Shown piece after piece: positions 21,245 through 38,527 of a stretch of 47,278 bases of DNA (position 1 is its first letter; each line of letters opens with the position of its first letter). Source of the DNA: a virus; the IMG/VR virus record IMGVR_UViG_3300017963_000364, positions 1-47,278 of that record, one strand, 5' to 3'. The notes under the pieces are model-generated. The model had not been told where the DNA came from. It worked only from the letters and a program-made list of their open reading frames with translations, and searched no databases. Both the position numbers and the translations under genes were made by a program.

Positions 21245-22606
21245 ATGACGGTAAAAGAAAGTATACTGGCGGCCTATCAAACTAACCGACAATTTAACAG
21301 AACAGCCCTGGCTAAGGAATTAGGCTGTTCCCGGCAATATCTTCAGAAGGTTTTGAAGGATATCAATGTTAAAGAATTGGTTCAGGCCAATACGGGGGCG
21401 GATTGGGAAGAAATACAGGAAACTACTACAATAGATCGGATCAGTAAGGGTTCTGAATATGTTATTGATGTAAACAGCCTATCAATAAATAGTGTAGATG
21501 AAGCCATAGCGGCCGCCGCTGTTGATCTGGATAAGTGGAAGGAAGCTGGCCATCAGATTAGTAGTAGTCAAGTAACAATGAAATTAAAAGTCAAAACCGG
21601 GGAAGATAAGGCGGGAAATGCCATCATTGAAGAAGAACCTAAAACCGTTACGAATTGGCATGTAAAAGTAAGGTTTGTTCCTAACCCGGAACGGAATGTT
21701 ATCCAGGCTACCCATGGGCTGATTAAAAAAATTCCTAAGTTTAAATTTTCAAAGTTTAGGCCTGTAAACTATGGATCGGAATCTGGTTATGCTGGTATCA
21801 TGGCGCTGATTGATGCCCATATGGGAAAGTTTGCTTGGGGCCTGGAAGTGGGTAGGGATTATGATTTGAAGATAGCCGGATCTGATTATTTATACTGTAC
21901 CAGGGAAAATCTATCTTATATGCAGCCGTTCCAGCCCGAAATTATTTATTTTATCCTTGGTCAAGATATTATGCATACTGAAAATTTTGAAGGCGTAACC
22001 CATAAAGGCCGGAATACCCTGGATACAGATACCAGGCTTCCTAAGTTGATTGAAAAGGCGGAAGAAACTATTATTCAATCAATTACGGAATGCCGGAAGG
22101 TAGCCCCGGTAGATGTTATCTGGTCACCTGGTAATCATGATATAGTTTCAAGCCTATGGATGGCCAGGATTGTTAACGCTTATTTCCGGGATGATCCCTA
22201 TGTTACTGTAGATCTTGGGCCAGCTAAACGGAAATGCCGCTTATGGGGAACTACCCTGGTAGGTTGGACTCATGAAATTATAGGCCGTTATGCTGCTTGG
22301 GCTAATGAACTGGCACAAGCCTTCCCCAAGGAATGGGCGGCTTCCCAATACAGGGAATGGCACCACGGCCATAAACACAAGAAGAACGAAATACAAACCA
22401 GCCCAATAGTAACCCAAGGCGGGGTTAAGATGCGACAATTAACCGCTTTAAGCCCTATAGATGCCTGGCATTTTGAAGGGCTGTTTACAGATGCAGTTCC
22501 AGGCGGGGAAGCTTTTGTAATGCATAAAACCAAGGGAATGGTAGCTAACTTTACATCCTGGACTGATCATAGATGGCCTAACCGGCTTCAAGACAAAAAC
22601 GCTTAA
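21245..22606 (+). CDS. HTH-metallophosphoesterase fusion
   Basis: 453 aa. Residues 1-40 form a helix-turn-helix (ALAKELGCSRQYLQKVLKD). Residues 175-450 are a calcineurin-like phosphoesterase: ALIDAHMGK, then YFILGQDIMHTE with NTLDTDTR, SPGNHDI, a GWTHE site and HHGHKHKK. This matches a phage family of predicted DNA repair nucleases or phosphatases that often carries the HTH. The usual GD metal motif reads GQD here. It has its own promoter of the same class as the replication genes, so it may be expressed earlier than the structural genes around it. Confidence 0.75.
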   Translation: MTVKESILAAYQTNRQFNRTALAKELGCSRQYLQKVLKDINVKELVQANTGADWEEIQETTTIDRISKGSEYVIDVNSLSINSVDEAIAAAAVDLDKWKEAGHQISSSQVTMKLKVKTGEDKAGNAIIEEEPKTVTNWHVKVRFVPNPERNVIQATHGLIKKIPKFKFSKFRPVNYGSESGYAGIMALIDAHMGKFAWGLEVGRDYDLKIAGSDYLYCTRENLSYMQPFQPEIIYFILGQDIMHTENFEGVTHKGRNTLDTDTRLPKLIEKAEETIIQSITECRKVAPVDVIWSPGNHDIVSSLWMARIVNAYFRDDPYVTVDLGPAKRKCRLWGTTLVGWTHEIIGRYAAWANELAQAFPKEWAASQYREWHHGHKHKKNEIQTSPIVTQGGVKMRQLTALSPIDAWHFEGLFTDAVPGGEAFVMHKTKGMVANFTSWTDHRWPNRLQDKNA

Positions 22607-27565: not shown

Positions 27566-27757
27566 TTATTTAATAACATGGAACCAAAACAGATCTAAAC
27601 TTTTCCAGTTATCAAAATAGAATAAAGATCTATGGTTAATAGCTATGATATTGATTGAACCAAACCAAGGCCAGCCCCCTATACCATAATCCAGATCAAG
27701 TTCCAGGTTCAATACTTCTATGGTTATGCAAAGATTCAATAATTTTTTAATGATCAT
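27566..27757 (-). CDS. Unknown small protein
   Basis: 63 aa, hydrophobic and aromatic (WPWFGSINIIAINHRSLFYF). Overlaps the radical SAM stop codon by ATGA, so it is probably translated with it. No recognised family. Confidence 0.5.
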   Translation of the reverse strand: MIIKKLLNLCITIEVLNLELDLDYGIGGWPWFGSINIIAINHRSLFYFDNWKSLDLFWFHVIK

Positions 27758-28710
27758 GATTTTAACCCGTTTAAATAATTTTTAGCCAAATCATTTTTAT
27801 GGAAAACAGGCCTTGGAGTTAAGACAATCTTTTGAAGTATGCATTCCTTATGCTTGTTACATGGCCTGGTATTTAACTTATAGCCCTGGCCATCTTTAAC
27901 GCCTGAACTGATATCAAATGGGCATATAGTTTTAGATCCATCAACATGGAAGTTAAGGAACCTACATTTATTCCAGGAAGTAAGGCCTTCAAAAACGGAA
28001 CGCCTACAGATATGCAGGGATTTAATTCCAAATCGATATAGATCTATTACATTATGATTCATTACGGCCTGAACATAATCAGCAAATTCAGAATTACTAA
28101 GGGTTTCTGGCGTATCTTCCCAAAAGCTTCCAGTAGTTACCATATCCCGGATAGATGAAATCATTAGGCCAGTAGCATTTAGTTCTGTTGACATATAACG
28201 GATGATCGGAAAAATTTCTTCTTGGTTATCCCGGCGGGCCATGAAACAAACCATGATAGGTAAATGGGTTTTGACATTAATCAGGTTCTTTTCAAAGCCG
28301 CTGAAGCCAAGAACGCCTACCCGTATAGATAGATCATCAAAGAAACCATATTTGGATGTAAAATCTTCCAGGGGCTTCATATTAGTTCCATTGGTATAGA
28401 TAGTAGTTTCTAAGCCCAAGGCCCGATTAAACAGAATCATCTTATGAAGATCCTTATGAAGGGTAGGTTCCCCGCCTATCAAGATGATTTTCTTTAAGTG
28501 CTGGTGATGATCAGTGTAATAATTAGCTATCCGCTGTTTATAATATTCAAAATCCATATCATAAGTTCCGGTAGGATCTCTATGCATATAGTTTGAATAG
28601 AAGCAAGCCTTACAGGCCCGATTACAGCGGTTAGTAATAAAAAACTGAAGGGTAGGTTTGAATGAAGCCGCTAACATATCCCATGTATTTTTATTGTATT
28701 CTAATTTCAT
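27754..28710 (-). CDS. Radical SAM enzyme with C-terminal cysteine cluster
   Basis: 318 aa. CNRACKAC (29-36) is the C-x3-C-x2-C motif that binds the catalytic iron-sulfur cluster, and GGEP (79-82) binds SAM. The last 100 residues contain further cysteines (HICRR, WNKCRF, TICPFDI, RPCNKHKECIL) like the SPASM or twitch regions that hold auxiliary clusters, which points to modification of a peptide or protein. It has its own AATAAT/TATACT promoter and a GGGG-type ribosome binding site. The substrate is unknown; viperin-like or QueE-like function is not supported by the motifs around the cluster. Confidence 0.8.
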   Translation of the reverse strand: MKLEYNKNTWDMLAASFKPTLQFFITNRCNRACKACFYSNYMHRDPTGTYDMDFEYYKQRIANYYTDHHQHLKKIILIGGEPTLHKDLHKMILFNRALGLETTIYTNGTNMKPLEDFTSKYGFFDDLSIRVGVLGFSGFEKNLINVKTHLPIMVCFMARRDNQEEIFPIIRYMSTELNATGLMISSIRDMVTTGSFWEDTPETLSNSEFADYVQAVMNHNVIDLYRFGIKSLHICRRSVFEGLTSWNKCRFLNFHVDGSKTICPFDISSGVKDGQGYKLNTRPCNKHKECILQKIVLTPRPVFHKNDLAKNYLNGLKS

Positions 28711-28768: not shown

Positions 28769-28950
28769 TAATCTAAAATTTCTATTAATACAAGAATGAT
28801 GATTAAGATCAAAGCAATTGGAACTATTAGAATGATCCCAAGCAGAAGGCAAAAGAATATAACTAATATAAAGATCAAGCCGTATAAAAAACTTAGGATC
28901 ATAGCTATTAAGCTAACCAAAGAATCTAAGAATTTTCCTATATATTTCAT
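28768..28950 (-). CDS. Small two-helix membrane protein
   Basis: 60 aa from the ATG at 28950, chosen because AAGGA precedes it and it forms an ATGA junction with the upstream stop. After MKYIGKFLD the protein is nearly all hydrophobic (LIAMILSFLYGLIFILVIFF, then a Pro-kinked second helix). It sits in the replication-side operon, not in the lysis cluster, so it may act at the membrane early in infection. Confidence 0.65.
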   Translation of the reverse strand: MKYIGKFLDSLVSLIAMILSFLYGLIFILVIFFCLLLGIILIVPIALILIIILVLIEILD

Positions 28951-29435
28951 AATGGGTTCCTTATTTTCCATCTATCGGAATGGTTAAAGAGTTTATACAT
29001 CATTTTCCGGGCCAGGCCATAATATTCATCCGGGCTTACTCTATGATCATGAAGCTTCTTAGCCTTCTTAATTTCTTTCATATAGAAGCCATCAGTAATA
29101 TGGATCAGGCCATAATCATCAATTAGTAATTCTTCGGGCCGTATAATATTTTCAGGTGAAACAAAGTAATAATAATTAGGCCGCATATGGGATAGATTCT
29201 TAAGGCCTGTATATTTATGTTTTCTTACCTTGCTACGCTTTTTAAATTCATTCCTGAAATCAGCCCTTGAACATTTGATTTCAAATTCATAGGTAAGCCC
29301 GGATTTCATGAATACGATAACATCCGCTTCATACCGATAGTTCCGGAAGTAGATGTTAGGAACTACTAAGGCCCGCTTAGCATATTGTTCAAAGATGATT
29401 TTCTGAATTCTGGCTTCTTTATATTTAATAGGCAT
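28947..29435 (-). CDS. MmcB-like PD-(D/E)XK nuclease
   Basis: 162 aa. YRYEADVIVFMKSG followed by YEFEIKCSRADF is the E-D-ExK arrangement of MmcB-type and related restriction-fold nucleases. The C-terminal half (YYFVSPENII, EELLIDDYGLI) agrees with the same family. Probably a DNA repair or resolution nuclease. It follows the DUF1937 gene by 1 nt and overlaps the small membrane gene. Confidence 0.65.
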   Translation of the reverse strand: MPIKYKEARIQKIIFEQYAKRALVVPNIYFRNYRYEADVIVFMKSGLTYEFEIKCSRADFRNEFKKRSKVRKHKYTGLKNLSHMRPNYYYFVSPENIIRPEELLIDDYGLIHITDGFYMKEIKKAKKLHDHRVSPDEYYGLARKMMYKLFNHSDRWKIRNPL

Positions 29436-29436
29436 T

Positions 29437-29874
29437 TTAAGAATAATATTGAAATAGTTTTTGTAGGATTTGGCCTTTTTTATCGATTAGGTAAATATAC
29501 TTTTTCATAGCCCGGCCCCAATCTATTTCAGTAAGAACGCCAGAACTTTTATTCCAGCCCCATAGATCAAGAACATAGATAACATCAGCCCGCTTAACGA
29601 ACCAGTAATCAAGTTCCAGCCATAGATGGCCATTAAGGTTTTCAAGTGGTATTACATGGCTATGGCTAATAGGGCTGAATACGTTCTTTCCACGCCCAAT
29701 TAGTTTAGCGGCTACCTTACTAACAGTTTTGAATCTGTACCAGGTAATAAGTTTTCCTATCCAGCCAAGCCAGAACCCTTTAAACAGTTTACCGAATATA
29801 ATAGGTGTATAAGGAACCGCCAGGTAAACCATAACTTTTTTATTATCTATATTATCCATTGCTTCTAAATTCAT
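29437..29874 (-). CDS. DUF1937 family, nucleoside deoxyribosyltransferase-like
   Basis: 145 aa. VYLAVPYTP, then VAAKLIGRGKNVFSPISHSH, LDYWFVKRADVIYVLDLWGW and KSSGVLTEIDW follow the order of the nucleoside 2-deoxyribosyltransferase fold, in which such enzymes exchange bases on deoxyribosides. An insertion of about 25 residues after VPYTP is hydrophobic. The ATG at 29874 follows AGGGGG and overlaps the previous gene by ATGA. Substrate not deducible. Confidence 0.65.
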   Translation of the reverse strand: MNLEAMDNIDNKKVMVYLAVPYTPIIFGKLFKGFWLGWIGKLITWYRFKTVSKVAAKLIGRGKNVFSPISHSHVIPLENLNGHLWLELDYWFVKRADVIYVLDLWGWNKSSGVLTEIDWGRAMKKYIYLIDKKGQILQKLFQYYS

Positions 29875-30515
29875 ATTAAACCCCCTATTTCATCCGGGCT
29901 TAGTTCCTTAACTTTGGAACGATTCCCTTCATTTTCTACCATAAAAGCCTTATCTGCTACTACAGCGTATTTATTTTCATGTGTAATAAATATTATTTGA
30001 TAGCTTTGATTTCTGGCTACCTGGCTGATTAATTCGCCAGCCCGTTCCTGAAATTTCCCCCGGCCAATCCATTTAAAGGCTTCATCAAAGAACAGAACCT
30101 TTCTGGATTGATCGGGCTGGTATCTATGGAAAACCGGGCGGGAAATAAAGCTGATTACATCCAGGATAGATCCGCCAAGATCCCCTTCTAATTCATATTC
30201 ATCCAGGCCATCTTTAATATTAAAGTTTAGATCGGTTCTATTTTTCAGTTCCTTCCATTCTAATTCAAAGCTGAAGCGGTTAAAAATAGAAGATACTGCT
30301 AAGGTCATTAAGCCTTCAATATCATCCTTAAAAGCGGTTTGGGTATTAGCTAAAACGGTTTGAACCACTGTTTTAGCTTCAAAGATCTGATCCATAATAG
30401 ATATTTCCTTAGCTTTTTTGGATTTAAGATCCTTGATCTTTTTCATGGCCGCCTTATAGGTATCTATTCTGGATTTGGCCCGGATAATGGCCAGCTTTGC
30501 TTCATCATTTGACAT
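29871..30515 (-). CDS. SbcC/Rad50-like ATPase, C-terminal half
   Basis: 214 aa. Begins with a short coiled coil, then the second lobe of an SMC-type ATPase: signature GGSILDVISF (114-123), Walker B VLFFDEAF (140-147), and the H-loop FITHE (H179). There is no Walker A. It completes the Walker A half encoded at 31857-32966, so the two proteins would form one ATPase site together. Start follows AAGGGGG. T4 gp46 and bacterial SbcC carry both lobes in one chain; here they are separate genes with SbcD between. Confidence 0.8.
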   Translation of the reverse strand: MSNDEAKLAIIRAKSRIDTYKAAMKKIKDLKSKKAKEISIMDQIFEAKTVVQTVLANTQTAFKDDIEGLMTLAVSSIFNRFSFELEWKELKNRTDLNFNIKDGLDEYELEGDLGGSILDVISFISRPVFHRYQPDQSRKVLFFDEAFKWIGRGKFQERAGELISQVARNQSYQIIFITHENKYAVVADKAFMVENEGNRSKVKELSPDEIGGLI

Positions 30516-30524
30516 TAGGCCCCC

Positions 30525-30863
30525 TTATTCTTCAAAACTTTCAAATTCATCGATTTCAAAGCCATCTTCAGGATCATTACTGTTGCCTGTTTGGGCAACA
30601 TCCCGGCTTTCGGCAACATTCCGGCCGCTTAAGCTTAAAGCATTATCGATTTTATCAATTAATTGATCCCGTTCTTTTTCCCAAGTCGATACCTTTGTTA
30701 TTAGTTCATCTATCAAGCTTTGTGCATCTTCAGCGGTTTCTATTCCATGTTCAGCCTTAAGCGCTTCTACCGTATTTAATAAAGCGCCTTTTTTAGTATC
30801 GGCTTCCCGCTTCCTTGCTTCATATCGCTGGCCTAATTGTTTTAATTTTTCTTCATGATCCAT
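30525..30863 (-). CDS. Coiled-coil protein of the split SbcCD operon
   Basis: 112 aa. The first 80 residues are a long charged coiled coil (RYEARKREADTKKGALLN, LIDELITKVSTWEKERDQL); the last 30 are acidic (EDGFEIDEFESFEE). It lies between SbcD and the C-terminal ATPase half. It may supply the returning arm of the Rad50 coiled coil or act as an assembly factor. No cysteine hook is present. Confidence 0.6.
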   Translation of the reverse strand: MDHEEKLKQLGQRYEARKREADTKKGALLNTVEALKAEHGIETAEDAQSLIDELITKVSTWEKERDQLIDKIDNALSLSGRNVAESRDVAQTGNSNDPEDGFEIDEFESFEE

Positions 30864-30881
30864 GCTTACCCCCTATTTCAG

Positions 30882-31856
30882 TTATAAGTCGTTAGCATCC
30901 AATTCCGCCAGGCCGCCATAAATATATCCCGCTATTTCTTTTGATACTTCATGTTCTTGAACAAATTCATCCAGGTTGTTCCGGAAGCTTCCTTTATCTG
31001 TAGATATTTCTACGCCATTTTCTGACAATCTATTTTTAAGCTTCAGGGTTAATTCCGCCATTTGTCTATCTTGGGCTTCTTGGGCTTCAATATGGGAACG
31101 GCTTAATACTTCATCAGCTTCTTTATGGGGAATAGGAATCCAGGTAAGTTTATTATAGGGTTCCCAAACATAGAAGCCAGGGTGATGTTCAAAATTATAG
31201 TTAGTAGCGCTGGAACGCAACATAGGCCCCGTATTTACTAAATGCCTTATCCTATCCTTACCGCTGGATTTAAGGCTTACTTTAAACTTCCTATGAATAT
31301 CAGCGCAAAGTATAACGCCAAAATTCTGATGGCGTTTCAGGAAGCCTTTAGGGCTATAATATTTATGGCCTTCAAATAATGCCTGGTCTGATATTTCCCT
31401 ATGTGTAAGAAGTAGGTTCCCTGGATGGAATTTGGCCGGGGTAGGAATAGTTTCCCCAAAGCTGGCCCCGTAAACCCTAACCGTTTTTTTACCCATTTCG
31501 ATTCTAAGCGGCTTTTCCCCGATAATGGTTAGGAATTCGGCTGCTGCTAAAGATCCTATTACCGTAGCTGGCCCGGCCGCTTCAGAATAATAATAACAAT
31601 CATGCTGGCCCCTAACCATTACAGTATCTACCCGGCCCTTCCATTTCATAAAGAAATGGGCAAGCAGCGGAAGCAGATACCAGGATCTTGGTTTATTCAC
31701 ATAATCCCCGGCCTGGCAAACAATAGCATCATTTTTTTCAGCCCAATCATAGATATAATTCAACTTTTTGAATTGGGTTTCTGCCAGATTATCCAGCCTG
31801 GATTCAGGATTTTCAAATGTTAAATGTATATCTGAAACCAAAACAACTTTTTTCAT
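30882..31856 (-). CDS. SbcD/Mre11-like nuclease
   Basis: 324 aa. Calcineurin-like metal motifs: SDIHL (D9-H11), AGDYV (G50-D51), RGQHD (83-86 region, with Gln in place of the usual Asn), LLTHREI and ADIHRKF. The C-terminal third is helical, matching the region by which Mre11 docks on Rad50 coiled coils. Starts adjacent to the stop of the Walker A half without a separate strong ribosome binding site, so translation is coupled. It should work with the split ATPase on DNA ends or hairpins. Confidence 0.8.
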   Translation of the reverse strand: MKKVVLVSDIHLTFENPESRLDNLAETQFKKLNYIYDWAEKNDAIVCQAGDYVNKPRSWYLLPLLAHFFMKWKGRVDTVMVRGQHDCYYYSEAAGPATVIGSLAAAEFLTIIGEKPLRIEMGKKTVRVYGASFGETIPTPAKFHPGNLLLTHREISDQALFEGHKYYSPKGFLKRHQNFGVILCADIHRKFKVSLKSSGKDRIRHLVNTGPMLRSSATNYNFEHHPGFYVWEPYNKLTWIPIPHKEADEVLSRSHIEAQEAQDRQMAELTLKLKNRLSENGVEISTDKGSFRNNLDEFVQEHEVSKEIAGYIYGGLAELDANDL

Positions 31857-32966
31857 TTAGATCCCCCTTATGATTTCTTTGATTTTTTCCTTATCAATAG
31901 ATTGAAAACAGGTAGGGCATTTTTTCAATTCCAATAGGAAGCTTATGTATTCATCCCCCGCTGAATCCCTTGCTTCCTTGGCCGTTATAAAATCAGCCTT
32001 AAGGCTAATAGCTGTTTTCAATGCTCTAATCTTTTTCCGGGCTTTATTGATATTTGAATTTAGAATACTGGCCCGGCCAAAAGGTAATCCAAGATCTGGA
32101 ACTTCTTTGATCTGTTGTAGGCTTTCAATTTTGGATTTCCAGGTTCTTAACTTATTGATCTTTTCAGCGCCATCATAAATCCATGGAATCAGTTCCTTAT
32201 TCAATCTGAAGAATTCATTTCTAAGATCCGGAACATTAGCTACCTGGCTAAGATCATTCAGCTTGAAGATATAGTTCTTAAGGCTGGATATCCTATCATC
32301 ATTTTTATCAATCAAGGTCAAAACAGTTTCAAGGCGCTTCATCCAAGCTTCAAGATCCTTGGCATTAGGGAAATTCTTAATGTTTTCGTTTTGTTCAGCC
32401 AGATCGGCTTTAATATTTTTTACAATGGCTTTTTGTTCATTATACTTTTTTCCAAGGCTGCTAAATAGCTGATCACCTATATCCAGGCCAGTAATCTTAT
32501 TAACTGTTTTGGATATCTTAGATCCGGAATCAGTAGCCAGGAATGGCGGATCTGCTTGGGCTTGAATATTAATATCGGTAAGCTGAAGGGCTTTGGTAAT
32601 TTCATCCGGAACTTCTTTCCCTACCCCGGTAGCATCCCATTTATCCCCGGTAGCGGTATCTTCAATATAGTAATAAGTAGATTCCCTTTTTGGCTTACCT
32701 GATTTAGGCCGCTTGCAATGAACCTTGATACCGATCTTAACGCCTTCATCATCCAGGATATAAACTTCTGTTTCAATTTCCTTCTTAGCCCATTTAGGCA
32801 TGAACTTAGCGCCTATAGGTCTATTACTCTTTAGAAGATCTATGGCCCGCATGATATTTGATTTTCCGGCTTGGGGATTGCCATAGATAGCATTGAAACC
32901 TTCATGAAGATTAATAACGGTATCTTCATGGGATTTGAAATTTTTTATTCCGATCTGTTCTATCAT
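31857..32966 (-). CDS. SbcC/Rad50-like ATPase, N-terminal half with zinc hook
   Basis: 369 aa. IKNFKSHEDTVINL and Walker A GNPQAGKS (29-36) are followed by an N-lobe, a Q-loop region and coiled coil from about 185. The chain ends in a CPTC zinc hook (350-353) with 16 residues after it. Full-length Rad50 returns through a second coil to Walker B; here the gene stops at the hook and the second lobe is the separate gene at 29871. Overlaps the upstream gene by ATGA. Confidence 0.8.
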   Translation of the reverse strand: MIEQIGIKNFKSHEDTVINLHEGFNAIYGNPQAGKSNIMRAIDLLKSNRPIGAKFMPKWAKKEIETEVYILDDEGVKIGIKVHCKRPKSGKPKRESTYYYIEDTATGDKWDATGVGKEVPDEITKALQLTDINIQAQADPPFLATDSGSKISKTVNKITGLDIGDQLFSSLGKKYNEQKAIVKNIKADLAEQNENIKNFPNAKDLEAWMKRLETVLTLIDKNDDRISSLKNYIFKLNDLSQVANVPDLRNEFFRLNKELIPWIYDGAEKINKLRTWKSKIESLQQIKEVPDLGLPFGRASILNSNINKARKKIRALKTAISLKADFITAKEARDSAGDEYISFLLELKKCPTCFQSIDKEKIKEIIRGI

Positions 32967-33435: not shown

Positions 33436-33506
33436 CTGGTTACCTGTAAAATTATTGCTATCCAGGCGGCCAGGGCCGCTATAGTTAGTATGATCAAATC
33501 CTTCAT
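33432..33506 (-). CDS. 24-aa single-helix membrane microprotein
   Basis: MKDLIILTIAALAAWIAIIL followed by QVTR. It starts inside the recA stop codon (TAATG, 33508-33504) and ends inside the next start (ATGA, 33435-33432), so it closes the gap between two genes exactly. AAAGG lies 10 nt upstream. One short membrane helix with a positive end. Unlikely to be chance because both junctions are of the coupling type used throughout this operon. Confidence 0.6.
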   Translation of the reverse strand: MKDLIILTIAALAAWIAIILQVTR

Positions 33507-34594
33507 TAGTATCTAACCTTTGCTTTCCTGGTTACTGGCTGATTTCGCTTTTTATATTCAATGAAGGCTTTTTTAAACAGCTTTTGTTCCAGGCCATTTT
33601 TTTCTACAAATTCAGCAAAAGCCCCAATTCCTTTAAGCTTGAATGGATCTTTACCCTTACGGGGCCATTCATAGATAGAAGCTGAATCCCCCAAGCAGTT
33701 AGTATACTTCTTCAGATATCTTGAACAATCCCTGATATTATCTACGCCATAACCAAGAACGATTGAAAAAGTACATTCCCGGAATGGATCATCTTCTGAA
33801 TTCTTTTTGAATACAGCCTTCAGCTTGATTCCCCTGGTAAGTTTTTCTTCAATATCGGTTCCCTTCCGGCCAGCTACTTTATCGGTAAGTTTTCCGATTT
33901 GGCTAAACCTAACCCTAACTGATGGCCAATGAATCATAGCATTCCCTAACGGGGTAATCTTTTTTTCTTCAAACATTCCCCCCATAACGTTATCAATTAA
34001 TTGATTAGAAAATACTACTATGAATTGGCAATCCGGCCTATTTATTTTATCTTTCAATAATCTCATATAATGCTGAACTGCTTTAGCCCTGGATTGGCCA
34101 GCCTTATCAGATTTTCCATCAATTTCAGCCTTACTATTCAGGGCTGCTACAGGATCAATGATATACAGGATCTTGGCCCCTTTTTTAGCTTTTAAAAAAG
34201 TATCGATTAAACGCTGAAAGCATTCTTCAATGTAGTTGGATGGATCAATGTAATGGAAACCCTTAGTATCCCGTTCAAAGCCAAAGGTTGATAATCTGGC
34301 CAGATCCCATCTGGTTTCAATATCATCAACATAGACTTCATAACCTTTTCTAAGCCCATCCCCGGCCATTTCCCCGCATATATAAGACTTGCCAGCCCCG
34401 CCAGTTCCAGAAAATTCAATGATCCGGCGGTTAGGGAATCCGCCTTTTTCAGATTTGTTACATGAAGCCGCTGCATCTAAAAGGACTGATCCAGAACTAA
34501 TCCATTCATTAACCAGTAGATCTTCTACCAGGAATGAAGGCTGTTCCTTCTTTTTATTTTTAGTAGGCTTCTTCTTATCGGTTTTCTTGGGCAT
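33506..34594 (-). CDS. RecA/UvsX-like recombinase
   Basis: 362 aa. Walker A GTGGAGKS (63-70), Walker B-type ILYIIDPVAAL, and FIVVFSNQL as the L2-preceding strand. The N-terminus is Lys-rich (PKKTDKKKPTKNKKK) and has no room for a full RecA N-terminal domain, as in phage RecA-like proteins. It should form filaments on single-stranded DNA with the UvsY-like mediator and gp32-like protein encoded upstream. AAGGGGG precedes the start. Confidence 0.8.
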   Translation of the reverse strand: MPKKTDKKKPTKNKKKEQPSFLVEDLLVNEWISSGSVLLDAAASCNKSEKGGFPNRRIIEFSGTGGAGKSYICGEMAGDGLRKGYEVYVDDIETRWDLARLSTFGFERDTKGFHYIDPSNYIEECFQRLIDTFLKAKKGAKILYIIDPVAALNSKAEIDGKSDKAGQSRAKAVQHYMRLLKDKINRPDCQFIVVFSNQLIDNVMGGMFEEKKITPLGNAMIHWPSVRVRFSQIGKLTDKVAGRKGTDIEEKLTRGIKLKAVFKKNSEDDPFRECTFSIVLGYGVDNIRDCSRYLKKYTNCLGDSASIYEWPRKGKDPFKLKGIGAFAEFVEKNGLEQKLFKKAFIEYKKRNQPVTRKAKVRY

Positions 34595-35109: not shown

Positions 35110-35574
35110 TTACATATGTTTATTCCAATATTTAGAACTATAAAGATTTTCAAGATCCCGGATCATAGATTTTCTATGTCGTAATGATTCAATAAATCCC
35201 TTTAATATCATATTTCTACGCTTAACTTTCCGGATCTTTTTCTTTACTTGTCTAACTTCAGCATCTAATTCTATCAGGGCTTTAATAGCGCCTTCCTTCA
35301 GATCTTCTAAGCCATGTTTTTTATATAGTACATTAGCTGGCATAGATCTAATCTTAAGTTCAGCCCTGGCTTTAGTTCTGCTAAGCCGATCTTCCCAATC
35401 CCTTACCATGGCCGCTGCTTCTTCAGCCAGTGTATACCACTTTTCAAACATGGGGGCTTGTCTTAGCGCTGATTTTTCAAGCTGGTTACGGCTAACCGGA
35501 ACTTCCCTATGGAAAGCTTCCCTAAGTTCATTAACCCCCATTGGCCTTAATTCATCTATATGTAATGGATGCAT
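35110..35574 (-). CDS. UvsY-like recombination mediator
   Basis: 154 aa from the ATG at 35574, which follows CGGGGG; longer starts would overlap the reductase gene. MGVNELREAFHREVPVSRNQL, a KWY site, and the ending LRHRKSMIRDLENLYSSKYW follow the layout of UvsY-type mediators (helical, with a C-terminal R-x-x-I-K/R pattern and YW end). It would load the RecA-like protein onto single-stranded DNA coated by the gp32-like protein, whose genes flank it. Similarity is by pattern only. Confidence 0.5.
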   Translation of the reverse strand: MHPLHIDELRPMGVNELREAFHREVPVSRNQLEKSALRQAPMFEKWYTLAEEAAAMVRDWEDRLSRTKARAELKIRSMPANVLYKKHGLEDLKEGAIKALIELDAEVRQVKKKIRKVKRRNMILKGFIESLRHRKSMIRDLENLYSSKYWNKHM

Positions 35575-35575
35575 A

Positions 35576-38527
35576 TTAACCCCCGCACTTATTGAAGCCA
35601 CAAACAAAACACTTTAAGCAGCCTTCTATATATCCCATCTGGCTATTACATTCCGGGCATGAATTATCTGAATGATGAATTCCTTTATGCTTATCAATTT
35701 CTTTAGTATGAAGCTTTGAACTGAAGCCCTGGTAAATGGCGGGTTCATCAAAGTCAATAACCGGCTTAGAATGTTCAAGTATATGGTATTCCATATCAAT
35801 AATCTTGGCTATTGCATCTGGAACGGATTTGATTAATTGTTTATAATCCCATTTCGAATCATAGCCTGTAATGCCTTCCAGGTGATAATGGATCTTATCG
35901 ATAGGAACGCCAGATCTAAGCGCCAGTGATATAAGGCGGCCAATGGCTTCAGTATAAGCAAAATCTTCCTTCCCGCTTTTACCGATCTTAGCAAAAATTT
36001 CAACTGGTAGCCCTTGATCATCTTCATTAATAGTAACATATAATTTACCCCGGCCGGTTTGAATCTTCCAGGTAAAGCCTTCTAATCTACTTTTCCGGCG
36101 GAATGGCGTAACATGATATTGAAGATTGGTTGATTTTTGGCCGCTGGTTTCGGTTTCGGTTTCGGCTTTGAGTGAATTTCCTGATGTTCCGCTATTATCT
36201 TTATTAACTTCATAGATTCTGTCTGGTCTGATTTCTGTTTGTGCTTCTTCATTCCTTGAACCTTCCCTGTAGATAGTTAAAGATTTTAATTGAAGTTTAT
36301 CAGCTAACATGATCAATTCATAGATCCCTTCTATAGAAAGATCATTGGAAACGTTAACGGTTTTTGATATGCCAGAATCCGTATATTTCTGAATAGCCGC
36401 TTGCATCCGTAAATGTTCTACTGGGGATACTTCAGCGGCAGTTATAAAATGATCCGGAAGGGGTTCAAGATTCTTGTAATAATGTTCAGCCATAGGATGA
36501 TATATTTCTATTTTTGTATCATCATCCAAAACTTTCTTTTCAAATTTGAATTTAAATATTGGTTCAATGCCGGGGCTACAATTAGCTATTATACTACATG
36601 ATCCAGTAGGCGCTACCGTAGTAACTAATCCATTCCGGCGGTTTGGTAAGTTTTCTGGATCTTCATTATAGGCCTGGTATGTTCCCCTGATTACCCCTAA
36701 AGAATAACTTGCTAAATGGGCTTGTTTTTGAAAATAGTTCATTACCTTTTCAATGAAGGTTATTGATTTTTCTGATCCATATGTATGGCGGGCCATCAAT
36801 AGAAGATCCGCCAGGCCCATAGGCCCCAATCCTATCCGCCTGGTATATTTGGCTTCCAGGGCTATATCTTCAGTAGGATAGTTATTGATTTCTATCATAT
36901 TATCCAAAAATTGAACAGAAGTATAGATATCATTTTTCAATGCTTCCCAATTGAAATATTCATCATGAACATTCCAATATCTGGCTAAATTCAAATGGCC
37001 AAGGCTACAAGAACCATTAGAAGGAAGCGGCTGTTCTCCGCAATTATGAATAACAATTCCATTAGCTATAAAATTGTTATGACCTGGAACTGATAAATCA
37101 TAAACATCAGCTTTTTCCTTTACCCCGGTAACGGAAACTACTCTTAAGTTAGTTCCGATTTGGCGGCCAGTATTTAAGGCCCTATCCGCTTTTGATTTCT
37201 TAATATCTTTTTTGGTATAGCGGCCTTTTTCATCAGTATGACCTTCCATCCAATTTTCATGGCCCTGGTTAGTAGCTTTGGAATGATCTGAATGGCTTAT
37301 TGATTCAAGGTTAGATCTTACGTTATTCAGCGGATCATTATCCTTATGATGAACATTAAGGCCTTCAATATTTTCATAATGGCCATGGATGAATCTATGT
37401 TCTAATATATAATCTGATTTATCATATCCGGTAAGGCCTACCCCTACATAACGTTCATTTTTCATAGCCCGGTTAAGTCCTACTATTCTATCAGATGGAA
37501 TTAGCTGTTTAGCTTCAATCCATCCATGGTTTTTTGTGAAAAATAAATGATCCGGCGTACATTTGATTGATCCCCTGGTAGTTTCTACCAGAACCAGATC
37601 AGCTTCCCGCTTAGTAAGGCTTATATGTTTGGCCCTGGCTATGGATAATTTCCCTTCTATGGATCTACAATATACATCAACATCTTCCCGGCCTACCAGA
37701 TCCTTAATAGGAATATTTCCTTCAGTAGTTTGAACTTTAGTTTCCCCTACAATACAGGGATTAGTGGAAGCTATGGATTCAATGGCTTTTAATTGGTTCA
37801 TTTGATTGATTCGATCTATGAAGATAATGCCGGGTTCCCCATTGATCCAGATGGATTCGCAGATTTCATCCATTACCGGCCGGGCCAGGATTTGTTTTTG
37901 GTTTTCCCCGTTATGATGTAGAACATAGTATCCATCTTCAATTACAGCTTGAAGGAAATCTTCAGTTATGGCTACTGATATATTAAAGTTTTCCAGAATG
38001 CCTTCAGTTCTTTTACATTTGATGAAATCCAGGATATCAGGATGATCTACCCTTAAGATACCCATATTAGCCCCCCGCCTAACCCCGCCTTGTTTCATTT
38101 CTGCTGTAGCGGCATTATAGATCCGCATGAAAGAAACCGGGCCGGAAGCTACCCCGCCAGATCCATTTACAAAGCTATCAGCGGGCCTTAGCTGACTGAA
38201 GTCAAAGCCAGTACCGCCGCCAGATTTATGGATAGTAGCGGCTTTCTTGAGTGTTTCAAATATAGAATCTATACTATCCTGTATTTCAAGAACGAAACAG
38301 GCCGATAGCTGGCCGGTTCTACCAGCATTAACCAGGGTAGGCGTATTAGGAACAAACCGTAAATCTTCCATAATTTCTATATATTTATTCAGCCAATAGA
38401 CATGATCCTTTTCATCTTCTACCGTGGCTATCTGTTCCGCTACCCGTTTAATCATTTGTTCCGGGCTTTCCCCATTTTGTAAATATCTGAACTGTAGAAC
38501 TTCTAAAGCGTTTTTTGATAAATTCAT
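35576..38527 (-). CDS. nrdJ: Class II ribonucleotide reductase (NrdJ-like) with intein
   Basis: 983 aa including a 238-aa intein, so 745 aa after splicing. Converts ribonucleotides to deoxyribonucleotides with adenosylcobalamin. The motifs NTPTLVNAGRTGQLSACF, KSGGGTGFDFSQLRP, EGILENFNISVAI and RRIGLGPMGLADLL identify the class. The C-terminus has the zinc-binding CPEC...CLKCFVCGFNKC typical of NrdJ, and no NrdB gene is visible. The intein interrupts NP/CGEQPL at the catalytic cysteine. Starts after AAGGGGGG and overlaps no other gene. Supplies dNTPs for phage DNA synthesis independent of oxygen. Confidence 0.9.
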   Translation of the reverse strand: MNLSKNALEVLQFRYLQNGESPEQMIKRVAEQIATVEDEKDHVYWLNKYIEIMEDLRFVPNTPTLVNAGRTGQLSACFVLEIQDSIDSIFETLKKAATIHKSGGGTGFDFSQLRPADSFVNGSGGVASGPVSFMRIYNAATAEMKQGGVRRGANMGILRVDHPDILDFIKCKRTEGILENFNISVAITEDFLQAVIEDGYYVLHHNGENQKQILARPVMDEICESIWINGEPGIIFIDRINQMNQLKAIESIASTNPCIVGETKVQTTEGNIPIKDLVGREDVDVYCRSIEGKLSIARAKHISLTKREADLVLVETTRGSIKCTPDHLFFTKNHGWIEAKQLIPSDRIVGLNRAMKNERYVGVGLTGYDKSDYILEHRFIHGHYENIEGLNVHHKDNDPLNNVRSNLESISHSDHSKATNQGHENWMEGHTDEKGRYTKKDIKKSKADRALNTGRQIGTNLRVVSVTGVKEKADVYDLSVPGHNNFIANGIVIHNCGEQPLPSNGSCSLGHLNLARYWNVHDEYFNWEALKNDIYTSVQFLDNMIEINNYPTEDIALEAKYTRRIGLGPMGLADLLLMARHTYGSEKSITFIEKVMNYFQKQAHLASYSLGVIRGTYQAYNEDPENLPNRRNGLVTTVAPTGSCSIIANCSPGIEPIFKFKFEKKVLDDDTKIEIYHPMAEHYYKNLEPLPDHFITAAEVSPVEHLRMQAAIQKYTDSGISKTVNVSNDLSIEGIYELIMLADKLQLKSLTIYREGSRNEEAQTEIRPDRIYEVNKDNSGTSGNSLKAETETETSGQKSTNLQYHVTPFRRKSRLEGFTWKIQTGRGKLYVTINEDDQGLPVEIFAKIGKSGKEDFAYTEAIGRLISLALRSGVPIDKIHYHLEGITGYDSKWDYKQLIKSVPDAIAKIIDMEYHILEHSKPVIDFDEPAIYQGFSSKLHTKEIDKHKGIHHSDNSCPECNSQMGYIEGCLKCFVCGFNKCGG
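37043..37756 (-). mobile_element. Intein with HNH homing endonuclease domain
   Basis: Residues 258-495 of the reductase. It begins with Cys (CIVGETKVQTTEG, block A), has the block B histidine in IKCTPDHLFF, an embedded HNH domain (LEHRFIHGHY, LNVHHKDNDPLNNVRSNLES), and ends DVYDLSVPGHNNF then GIVIHN followed by the extein Cys. All residues needed for splicing (Cys1, block B T-x-x-H, terminal His-Asn, Cys+1) are present, so it is probably active. HNH is less common than LAGLIDADG in inteins. Confidence 0.9.

Follow-up and report, generated by a model that had tools for sequence, protein, structure and literature searches.

Introduction

The gp46 and gp47 proteins of bacteriophage T4 process DNA ends for recombination-dependent replication, and they belong to the Mre11-Rad50 (SbcCD) complexes. 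Models of Mre11-Rad50 and of SMC-like machines presume one chain that runs from head to hook and back, relaying signals between the nuclease head and the apex. Here, we analyzed a stretch of 47,278 bases from a virus of bacteria (IMG/VR record IMGVR_UViG_3300017963_000364, positions 1 to 47,278; hereafter the window), which on its sequence likely encodes a functional Mre11-Rad50 complex with a Rad50 that is always made as two chains. The two Rad50 halves (N-half and C-half), an SbcD nuclease and a small helical protein termed CC each have a gene of their own, and this set of four is found in dozens of other phage contigs at 20-30% identity. The split four-gene set is a real form of the machine and not a chance arrangement.

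Full-length phage SbcC has been discussed for SPN3US (PMC5105663) and for jumbo phages (PMC7824862). Other split phage enzymes are present in the literature, for example the polymerase III of a jumbo phage, and these are not Rad50. The open-licence literature searched, outside which most subscription journals and preprints lie, contains no mention of a split SbcC or Rad50, and this form is apparently undescribed so far.

Two halves of Rad50 and an Mre11-type nuclease

The N-half (31857-32966, minus strand, 369 residues) is composed of lobe I, an arm and a terminal hook, as assigned by Pfam, PHROG, a PDB profile, AlphaFold2 and Foldseek. Its sequence shows the Walker A motif GNPQAGKS, the Q-loop region DINIQAQ and the zinc hook CPTC at residues 350-353, whose codons occupy 31908-31919 on the minus strand. 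In the 54-row alignment, which together with the translation locates the hook, C350 and C353 are invariant and P351 is kept in more than 90% of the sequences. The window protein matches Pfam AAA_23 (4.1e-10), the zinc hook (0.0064) and phrog_16465 (1e-22), and the family profile matches Rad50 in the PDB at 1.5e-17. NCBIfam Rad50 models align to the N-half starting at model position 3. The AlphaFold2 model calculated from 54 sequences [predicted local distance difference test (pLDDT) 87.8, predicted template-modelling score (pTM) 0.50] shows lobe I, the arm helices and then the hook, and Foldseek matches it to Rad50 structures at about 5e-7. The arm (residues ~161-347) is predicted to form helices at 161-197, 202-243, 246-284 and 298-347.

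The C-half (29871-30515, minus strand, 214 residues) consists of a coil of ~45-50 residues followed by lobe II, as recognized by phrog_15167 and a PDB profile. A signature-like DLGGSILDV, the Walker B motif VLFFDEA and the H-switch FITHE are present in the window protein, which matches phrog_15167, annotated as 'ATPase', at 2.9e-12, with nothing above the cut-off in Pfam. The family profile matches Rad50 in the PDB at 5.8e-16, and the top 11 matches are all Rad50. The NCBIfam Rad50 model covers the C-half of a relative at positions 676-877 of 878. Therefore, the N-half and C-half, which both match Rad50, cover complementary ends of one protein. In the C-half alignment, residues D119, R126, D144, E145, K148 and Q173 are invariant and the H-switch is kept in more than 90% of the members; D144 and E145 form the DE of Walker B, and the aspartate and arginine of the signature helix are likewise kept. 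In the profile alignment, R126 is the counterpart of R805 in Rad50 of P. furiosus.

The SbcD/Mre11-type metallophosphoesterase (30882-31856, minus strand, 324 residues) matches Pfam Metallophos (1.1e-9) and the phrog_100 SbcD family (2.3e-8), and its ATG directly abuts the stop codon of the N-half. The SbcD family profile matches Mre11 in the PDB at 7.8e-15, and D9, H11, D51, H85, H152 and H188 are invariant across the aligned members. Its fold and metal-site motifs are those of an Mre11-like calcineurin-type phosphoesterase, with two positions altered in most members. CC (30525-30863, minus strand, 112 residues) completes the set. All four genes lie on the minus strand at the positions given in the original prediction, which had been made from the window sequence alone.

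Conservation of the split across phages

When proteins of the window were used one at a time to scan IMG/VR (N-half, SbcD, C-half and UvsX) and genome_contigs (N-half and capsid protein), no relative was confirmed, because the window is divergent. With the capsid protein as query, IMG/VR yielded 12 contigs, and the module was found in none of them. The four rows of an N-half alignment differed too much for use as a scan query; a two-row alignment of UvsX recovered the loci L060 and L064, and L060 then led to a scan with the C-half family. The gene order of L060 is UvsY, UvsX, N-half, SbcD, CC and C-half, as in the window, and the last four proteins are ~23-29% identical between the two.

The C-half family scan gave 170 relatives, from which 80 loci were kept. 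Profile annotation of these loci, the window and the known phages gave 58 distinct modules with intact N-half, SbcD and C-half, and the profiles used for identification were built from 44 to 54 homologues. The original prediction had proposed a search for the same gene order in other phages, and the order N-half, SbcD, CC and C-half is indeed found in 53 of the 58 distinct modules. The gap between N-half and SbcD exceeds 200 nt in 24 of these 53 and reaches 2.3 kb. No open reading frame (ORF) carrying both Rad50 halves was found among the modules examined. All of the aligned N-halves match phrog_16465 and all of the aligned C-halves match phrog_15167, and a UvsX/RecA-like ORF lies near the C-half in 56 of the 80 loci. 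A second, full-length SbcC was not found in 25 longer contigs that carry the split set: apart from the genes of the module itself, the SbcC family search matched only a stretch of coil in one contig. Thus, a full-length partner of the second half, named beforehand as a finding that would speak against the split complex, does not appear inside these phages.

In a tree of C-half sequences, the split proteins group apart from the SbcC of Escherichia phage IME392. The IME392 branch is 7.95 long and its position is unreliable, so the tree neither shows nor excludes a single origin of the split. Several ORFs of the modules are interrupted: the N-half of L134 (4229-5654) and the SbcD of L170 and of L172 (4407-5797), both by insertions of ~480 nt, and the C-half of L145 (6926-7567), which is broken by a stop or frameshift. 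An Rfam search of the loci with interrupted ORFs found no intron.

Complete phage genomes with separate halves

The halves are separate genes in four complete genomes of phages with different hosts (Microcystis, Bacillus, Microbacterium and Tunturiibacter). In Microcystis phage Mvi-JY20, the N-half, SbcD, an equivalent of CC and the C-half follow one another as adjacent genes. In Bacillus phage vB_BboS-125, the order is N-half (gp32), a CC-like protein (gp34), C-half (gp35) and then SbcD; gp32 has 471 residues, and its hook CPLC is close to the end. The SbcD ORF of this phage is unannotated (L108:6854-7969, 372 residues from stop to stop, 1.5e-40) and falls in a RefSeq stretch that is mostly free of genes.

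The other two genomes show the parts at a distance. In Microbacterium phage Magritte, the N-half (gp155) lies at 93.8 kb, SbcD at 119.7 kb, CC (gp245) at 127.2 kb and the C-half (gp2) at 0.3 kb; the parts are dispersed along the genome, yet they keep the usual order. In Tunturiibacter phage Tunturi_5, the C-half is at 19 kb on the plus strand and the N-half at 128 kb on the minus strand, ~108 kb apart, and the N-half ends with CGKC and a short tail. These four are the distinct sequenced isolates that we located, compared with 170 uncultured relatives from one scan. Rarity among isolates and abundance in uncultured phages may account for the earlier oversight of the split form.

The arm, the hook and CC

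The stop codon of the window N-half is located 16 residues past the second hook cysteine, which agrees with the claim that this half ends at the CPTC hook. The CxxC hook is terminal on the N-half in 54 of the 58 distinct modules, the window included, and the remaining four carry a CPI...C variant with wider cysteine spacing. In the 54, CxxC begins 6 to 24 residues before the C-terminus, often as CPLCGRGE followed by the stop; thus, the chain stops at the hook and has a short return helix at most. The original prediction had divided Rad50 into Walker A and Walker B halves, which holds with one amendment: the return coil of the C-half has only ~45-50 residues, so that almost the whole arm belongs to the N-half.

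The distance from Walker A to the hook falls into three classes with means of 265.8, 313.0 and 359.3 residues and nothing in between, and vB_BboS-125 is an outlier at 428. These discrete classes show that N-half arms differ by whole units of ~47 residues; the null test of the classes treated related sequences as independent and is indicative only.

CC is identified by its family, present in 53 of the 58 distinct modules, and by an AlphaFold2 model. The model shows helices at residues 3-39 and 44-89 on either side of a GIET turn, with pLDDT values of ~90-98 across both helices, and then an acidic tail of low confidence. No convincing homologue of CC was found in Pfam, NCBIfam, PHROG or the PDB, and a Foldseek search with CC was also empty. 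Comparison with known Rad50 coils gave no significant sequence link, and similarity to the N-half arm or to the C-half coil was below significance. A single CC gave a weak match to the SbcC profile phrog_77 at 708-788, the interval between the hook and lobe II (5e-4, in coil sequence). When detected by the profile, CC always sits between SbcD and the C-half. Four distinct modules have no profile-detected CC; among them, Mvi-JY20 has a 94-residue equivalent and L135 a plausible ORF of 88 residues. Fusions of CC with the C-half or of the N-half with CC were looked for among the modules and not found.

Gene neighbourhood of the window

Structural genes of the siphophage type occupy the left half of the window, and the major capsid protein among them is SPP1-like (56% to Terrisporobacter phage TVCOM_ph1). 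The right half is encoded on the minus strand and devoted to DNA metabolism; it contains a helicase, a family A polymerase, a gp32-like SSB, ribonucleotide reductase, a UvsY-like protein, UvsX and then the four-gene module. The UvsX-type recombinase (33506-34594, minus strand) matches Pfam RecA (1.9e-20) and the phrog_97 UvsX family (7.1e-34). The UvsY-like recombination mediator (35110-35607, minus strand) matches phrog_231 (1.4e-7), and Pfam UvsY at 0.0011 is below its cut-off. The four genes stand as originally described, with the amendment that the module reaches further upstream, to these two genes.

The large chain of ribonucleotide reductase (35576-38527, minus strand) carries an in-frame intein with an HNH domain (Intein_splicing 2.2e-18, HNH_3 1.1e-4). 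Directly downstream of the module is a 162-residue protein (28947-29435, minus strand) that matches phrog_2776 (5e-24) and shows weak MmcB-like similarity; a radical SAM protein (27754-28710, minus strand; 7.1e-11) is also located downstream. A protein of 453 residues (21245-22606, plus strand) matches phrog_704, 'DNA repair exonuclease', at 2.9e-54; it shows no nuclease domain in Pfam and is encoded on the strand of the structural genes.

Proposed assembly

We infer the assembly, its stoichiometry, the function of CC and the role in the phage from the features described above. The N-half and C-half would associate non-covalently to form one ATP-binding cassette (ABC) ATPase head, in which the C-half coil may pack on the first helix of the arm, by analogy with crystals of the engineered two-chain Rad50 catalytic domain. 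Two such heads would form an ATP sandwich on a dimer of SbcD, and this dimer would cut DNA ends. The terminal CxxC would provide two cysteines per arm, so that two tails could bring four cysteines together in one zinc bridge with no need for a returning helix. By resecting double-strand ends, the complex would serve recombination-dependent replication driven by UvsX and UvsY, in the manner of T4 gp46/gp47.

CC may be a dedicated extra subunit, bound to the N-half arm or to the arm and the C-half coil, that replaces part of the missing return coil. We infer this role solely from the constant presence and position of CC; packing on the arm in place of part of the return coil is its most likely role, with about an even chance of being correct. 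We suggest more tentatively, and at somewhat less than an even chance, that the Rad50 arm is built from separate chains (the N-half arm, CC and the C-half coil) and ends in a free zinc-hook tail, which would let the head and the arm open or be exchanged while every chain stays intact, and that arm units of ~47 residues are gained or lost whole.

Alternative explanations

The split could be an artefact or decay, in which sequencing error, frameshift, readthrough or a reassigned stop masks one continuous SbcC gene. The window itself invites this idea, because its four genes share one reading frame and are parted only by stops, and the stop of the N-half touches the start of SbcD. However, the SbcD gene intervenes between the halves, and such a shared frame is found in only two of the 58 modules. 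All three stop codons terminate genes across the modules, and a direct check of L174 showed more than 25 stops between its module genes; the unusually large open-frame values in the SbcC search of the longer contigs arise because that measure reads through stops. In the window, TAA terminates 19 of the 23 long ORFs, and a ribosome-binding-like run of GGGGG precedes the start codons of SbcD, CC and the C-half by 4-6 nt. Moreover, the break recurs in dozens of independent contigs and in the four complete genomes. Sequencing error, frameshift, readthrough and recoding are thus ruled out as the cause of the split, and an artefact or decay of any kind has a negligible probability. The earlier view that the locus is not a frameshifted pseudogene is borne out, as split, order and intact motifs are conserved over the 58 distinct modules and the complete genomes. 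A different objection is that the two halves do not join, with the C-half inserting into the full-length SbcC of the host as a lobe that regulates it or is dominant-negative, or the N-half a lone SMC-like tether. Host SbcC is widespread in control genomes, and the halves are far apart in Magritte and Tunturi_5, in the latter on opposite strands. Against this, both halves and SbcD occur in fixed order in almost all loci whose sequence extends far enough upstream from the C-half, both halves retain the residues of the shared ATP site, and the four complete genomes keep both despite their different hosts, so we regard separate functions as unlikely.

An alternative for CC deserves more weight: it may be a separate small factor, such as a regulator of SbcD, a chaperone for assembly or an anti-host protein, that shares the operon without belonging to the Rad50 arm. 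The lack of a significant sequence link to known Rad50 coils, the predicted pair of helices round a short turn instead of a single straight helix, the independence of its length from that of the arm and its absence from a few modules are all consistent with such a factor. The constancy of its place between SbcD and the C-half, its retention in Magritte despite the dispersed parts, and the weak match of one CC to phrog_77 between hook and lobe II point to the arm instead, so that a separate factor is a serious possibility that falls a little short of even. In contrast, it is very unlikely that the set is an anti-phage defence system or an effector like RloC or Gabija carried by the phage, and not a complex for replication and repair. 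The N-half shows generic ATPase-domain similarity to the AriA, GajA and Old models, but this covers mostly the common Walker A region; SbcD, CC and the C-half have no defence matches, and the neighbours are UvsX, UvsY, SSB, ribonucleotide reductase and DNA polymerase. Neither a whole-protein match to the defence ATPases GajA, AriA and PtuA nor their effector partners were found.

Several observations count against a divided Mre11-Rad50 complex of the kind proposed here. The N-half of Magritte (gp155, L205:1339-2391) lacks the hook cysteines and is a natural hookless N-half, and at least two modules, L178 and L188, have no detectable CC. The serine of the ABC signature is not conserved, with DLGG in the window and often GGG in relatives. 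In the SbcD family, motif III of Mre11 changes from GNHD to GQHD in 25 of 44 members, and GHxH to GDxH in most. Finally, the lengths of CC and of the C-half coil are uncorrelated with the length of the N-half arm (r = 0.09 and 0.01, respectively). The arm thus changes in length with no parallel change in CC or the C-half, so that in at least some members CC cannot be a simple return strand as long as the arm. The earlier idea that the coil arms pair as separate proteins and could be exchangeable or regulated needs amending for the same reason.

Comparison with known systems

A natural, conserved cut at this site suggests that some phages can do without the covalent link, and the split form offers a test of the purpose served by the return coil, by the hairpin of the hook and by the ring topology. 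It also assigns families labelled 'exonuclease', 'ATPase' and 'hypothetical' to one complex, with CC as a new candidate subunit. The 'exonuclease' phrog_16465 and the 'ATPase' phrog_15167 are the same families as the two halves (compare gp32 and gp35 of vB_BboS-125); PHROG treats them as unrelated single proteins and not as halves of Rad50, and CC and SbcD are not linked to them.

Some phage proteins serve for contrast only. We rejected those of fJoAci04, Vibrio K478b and IME392 and the ~505-residue proteins of Bacillota phages as split relatives, being single-chain, and MT837016, which is a cellular RecF beside DnaA. The IME392 protein, an SbcD-SbcC fusion of 921 residues, is a phage SbcCD of the opposite architecture, with the nuclease and a complete SbcC in one chain. 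The ~505-residue SbcC/RecN-like ATPases of Bacillota phages (Jacopo, Mimir87 and Spoks) have an N-terminal Rad50-like lobe I and a central CxxC-type motif; unlike the split set, they are one continuous chain beside RecT, and SbcD is not adjacent.

The engineered catalytic domain of P. furiosus Rad50 (PDB entries 1f2t and 1ii8) is closer in its assembly, since lobe I and lobe II form one head as two separate chains (A and B), and both entries are among the best structural matches. A two-chain head thus has experimental precedent. However, the engineered protein is a man-made truncation without arm or hook, whereas the phage split is natural and its N-half keeps both.

With SbcCD and Mre11-Rad50, including T4 gp46/gp47 (phrog_77/phrog_100), the phage set shares both ABC lobes, Walker A, Walker B, the H-switch, the CxxC hook, an Mre11-type nuclease, recombination neighbours and a nuclease gene beside the Rad50 genes. 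It differs in that its Rad50 is two genes, the first ending at the hook, in the conserved extra small helical subunit and in the gene order, which is N-half, nuclease, CC and C-half in the phages compared with SbcD-SbcC in the known systems. A single polypeptide that holds both lobes and has its hook midway along a long antiparallel coil is not found here. The sequence features of Rad50 and Mre11 are present but the one-chain architecture is absent, so the split set is a variant and not an ordinary member of the family.

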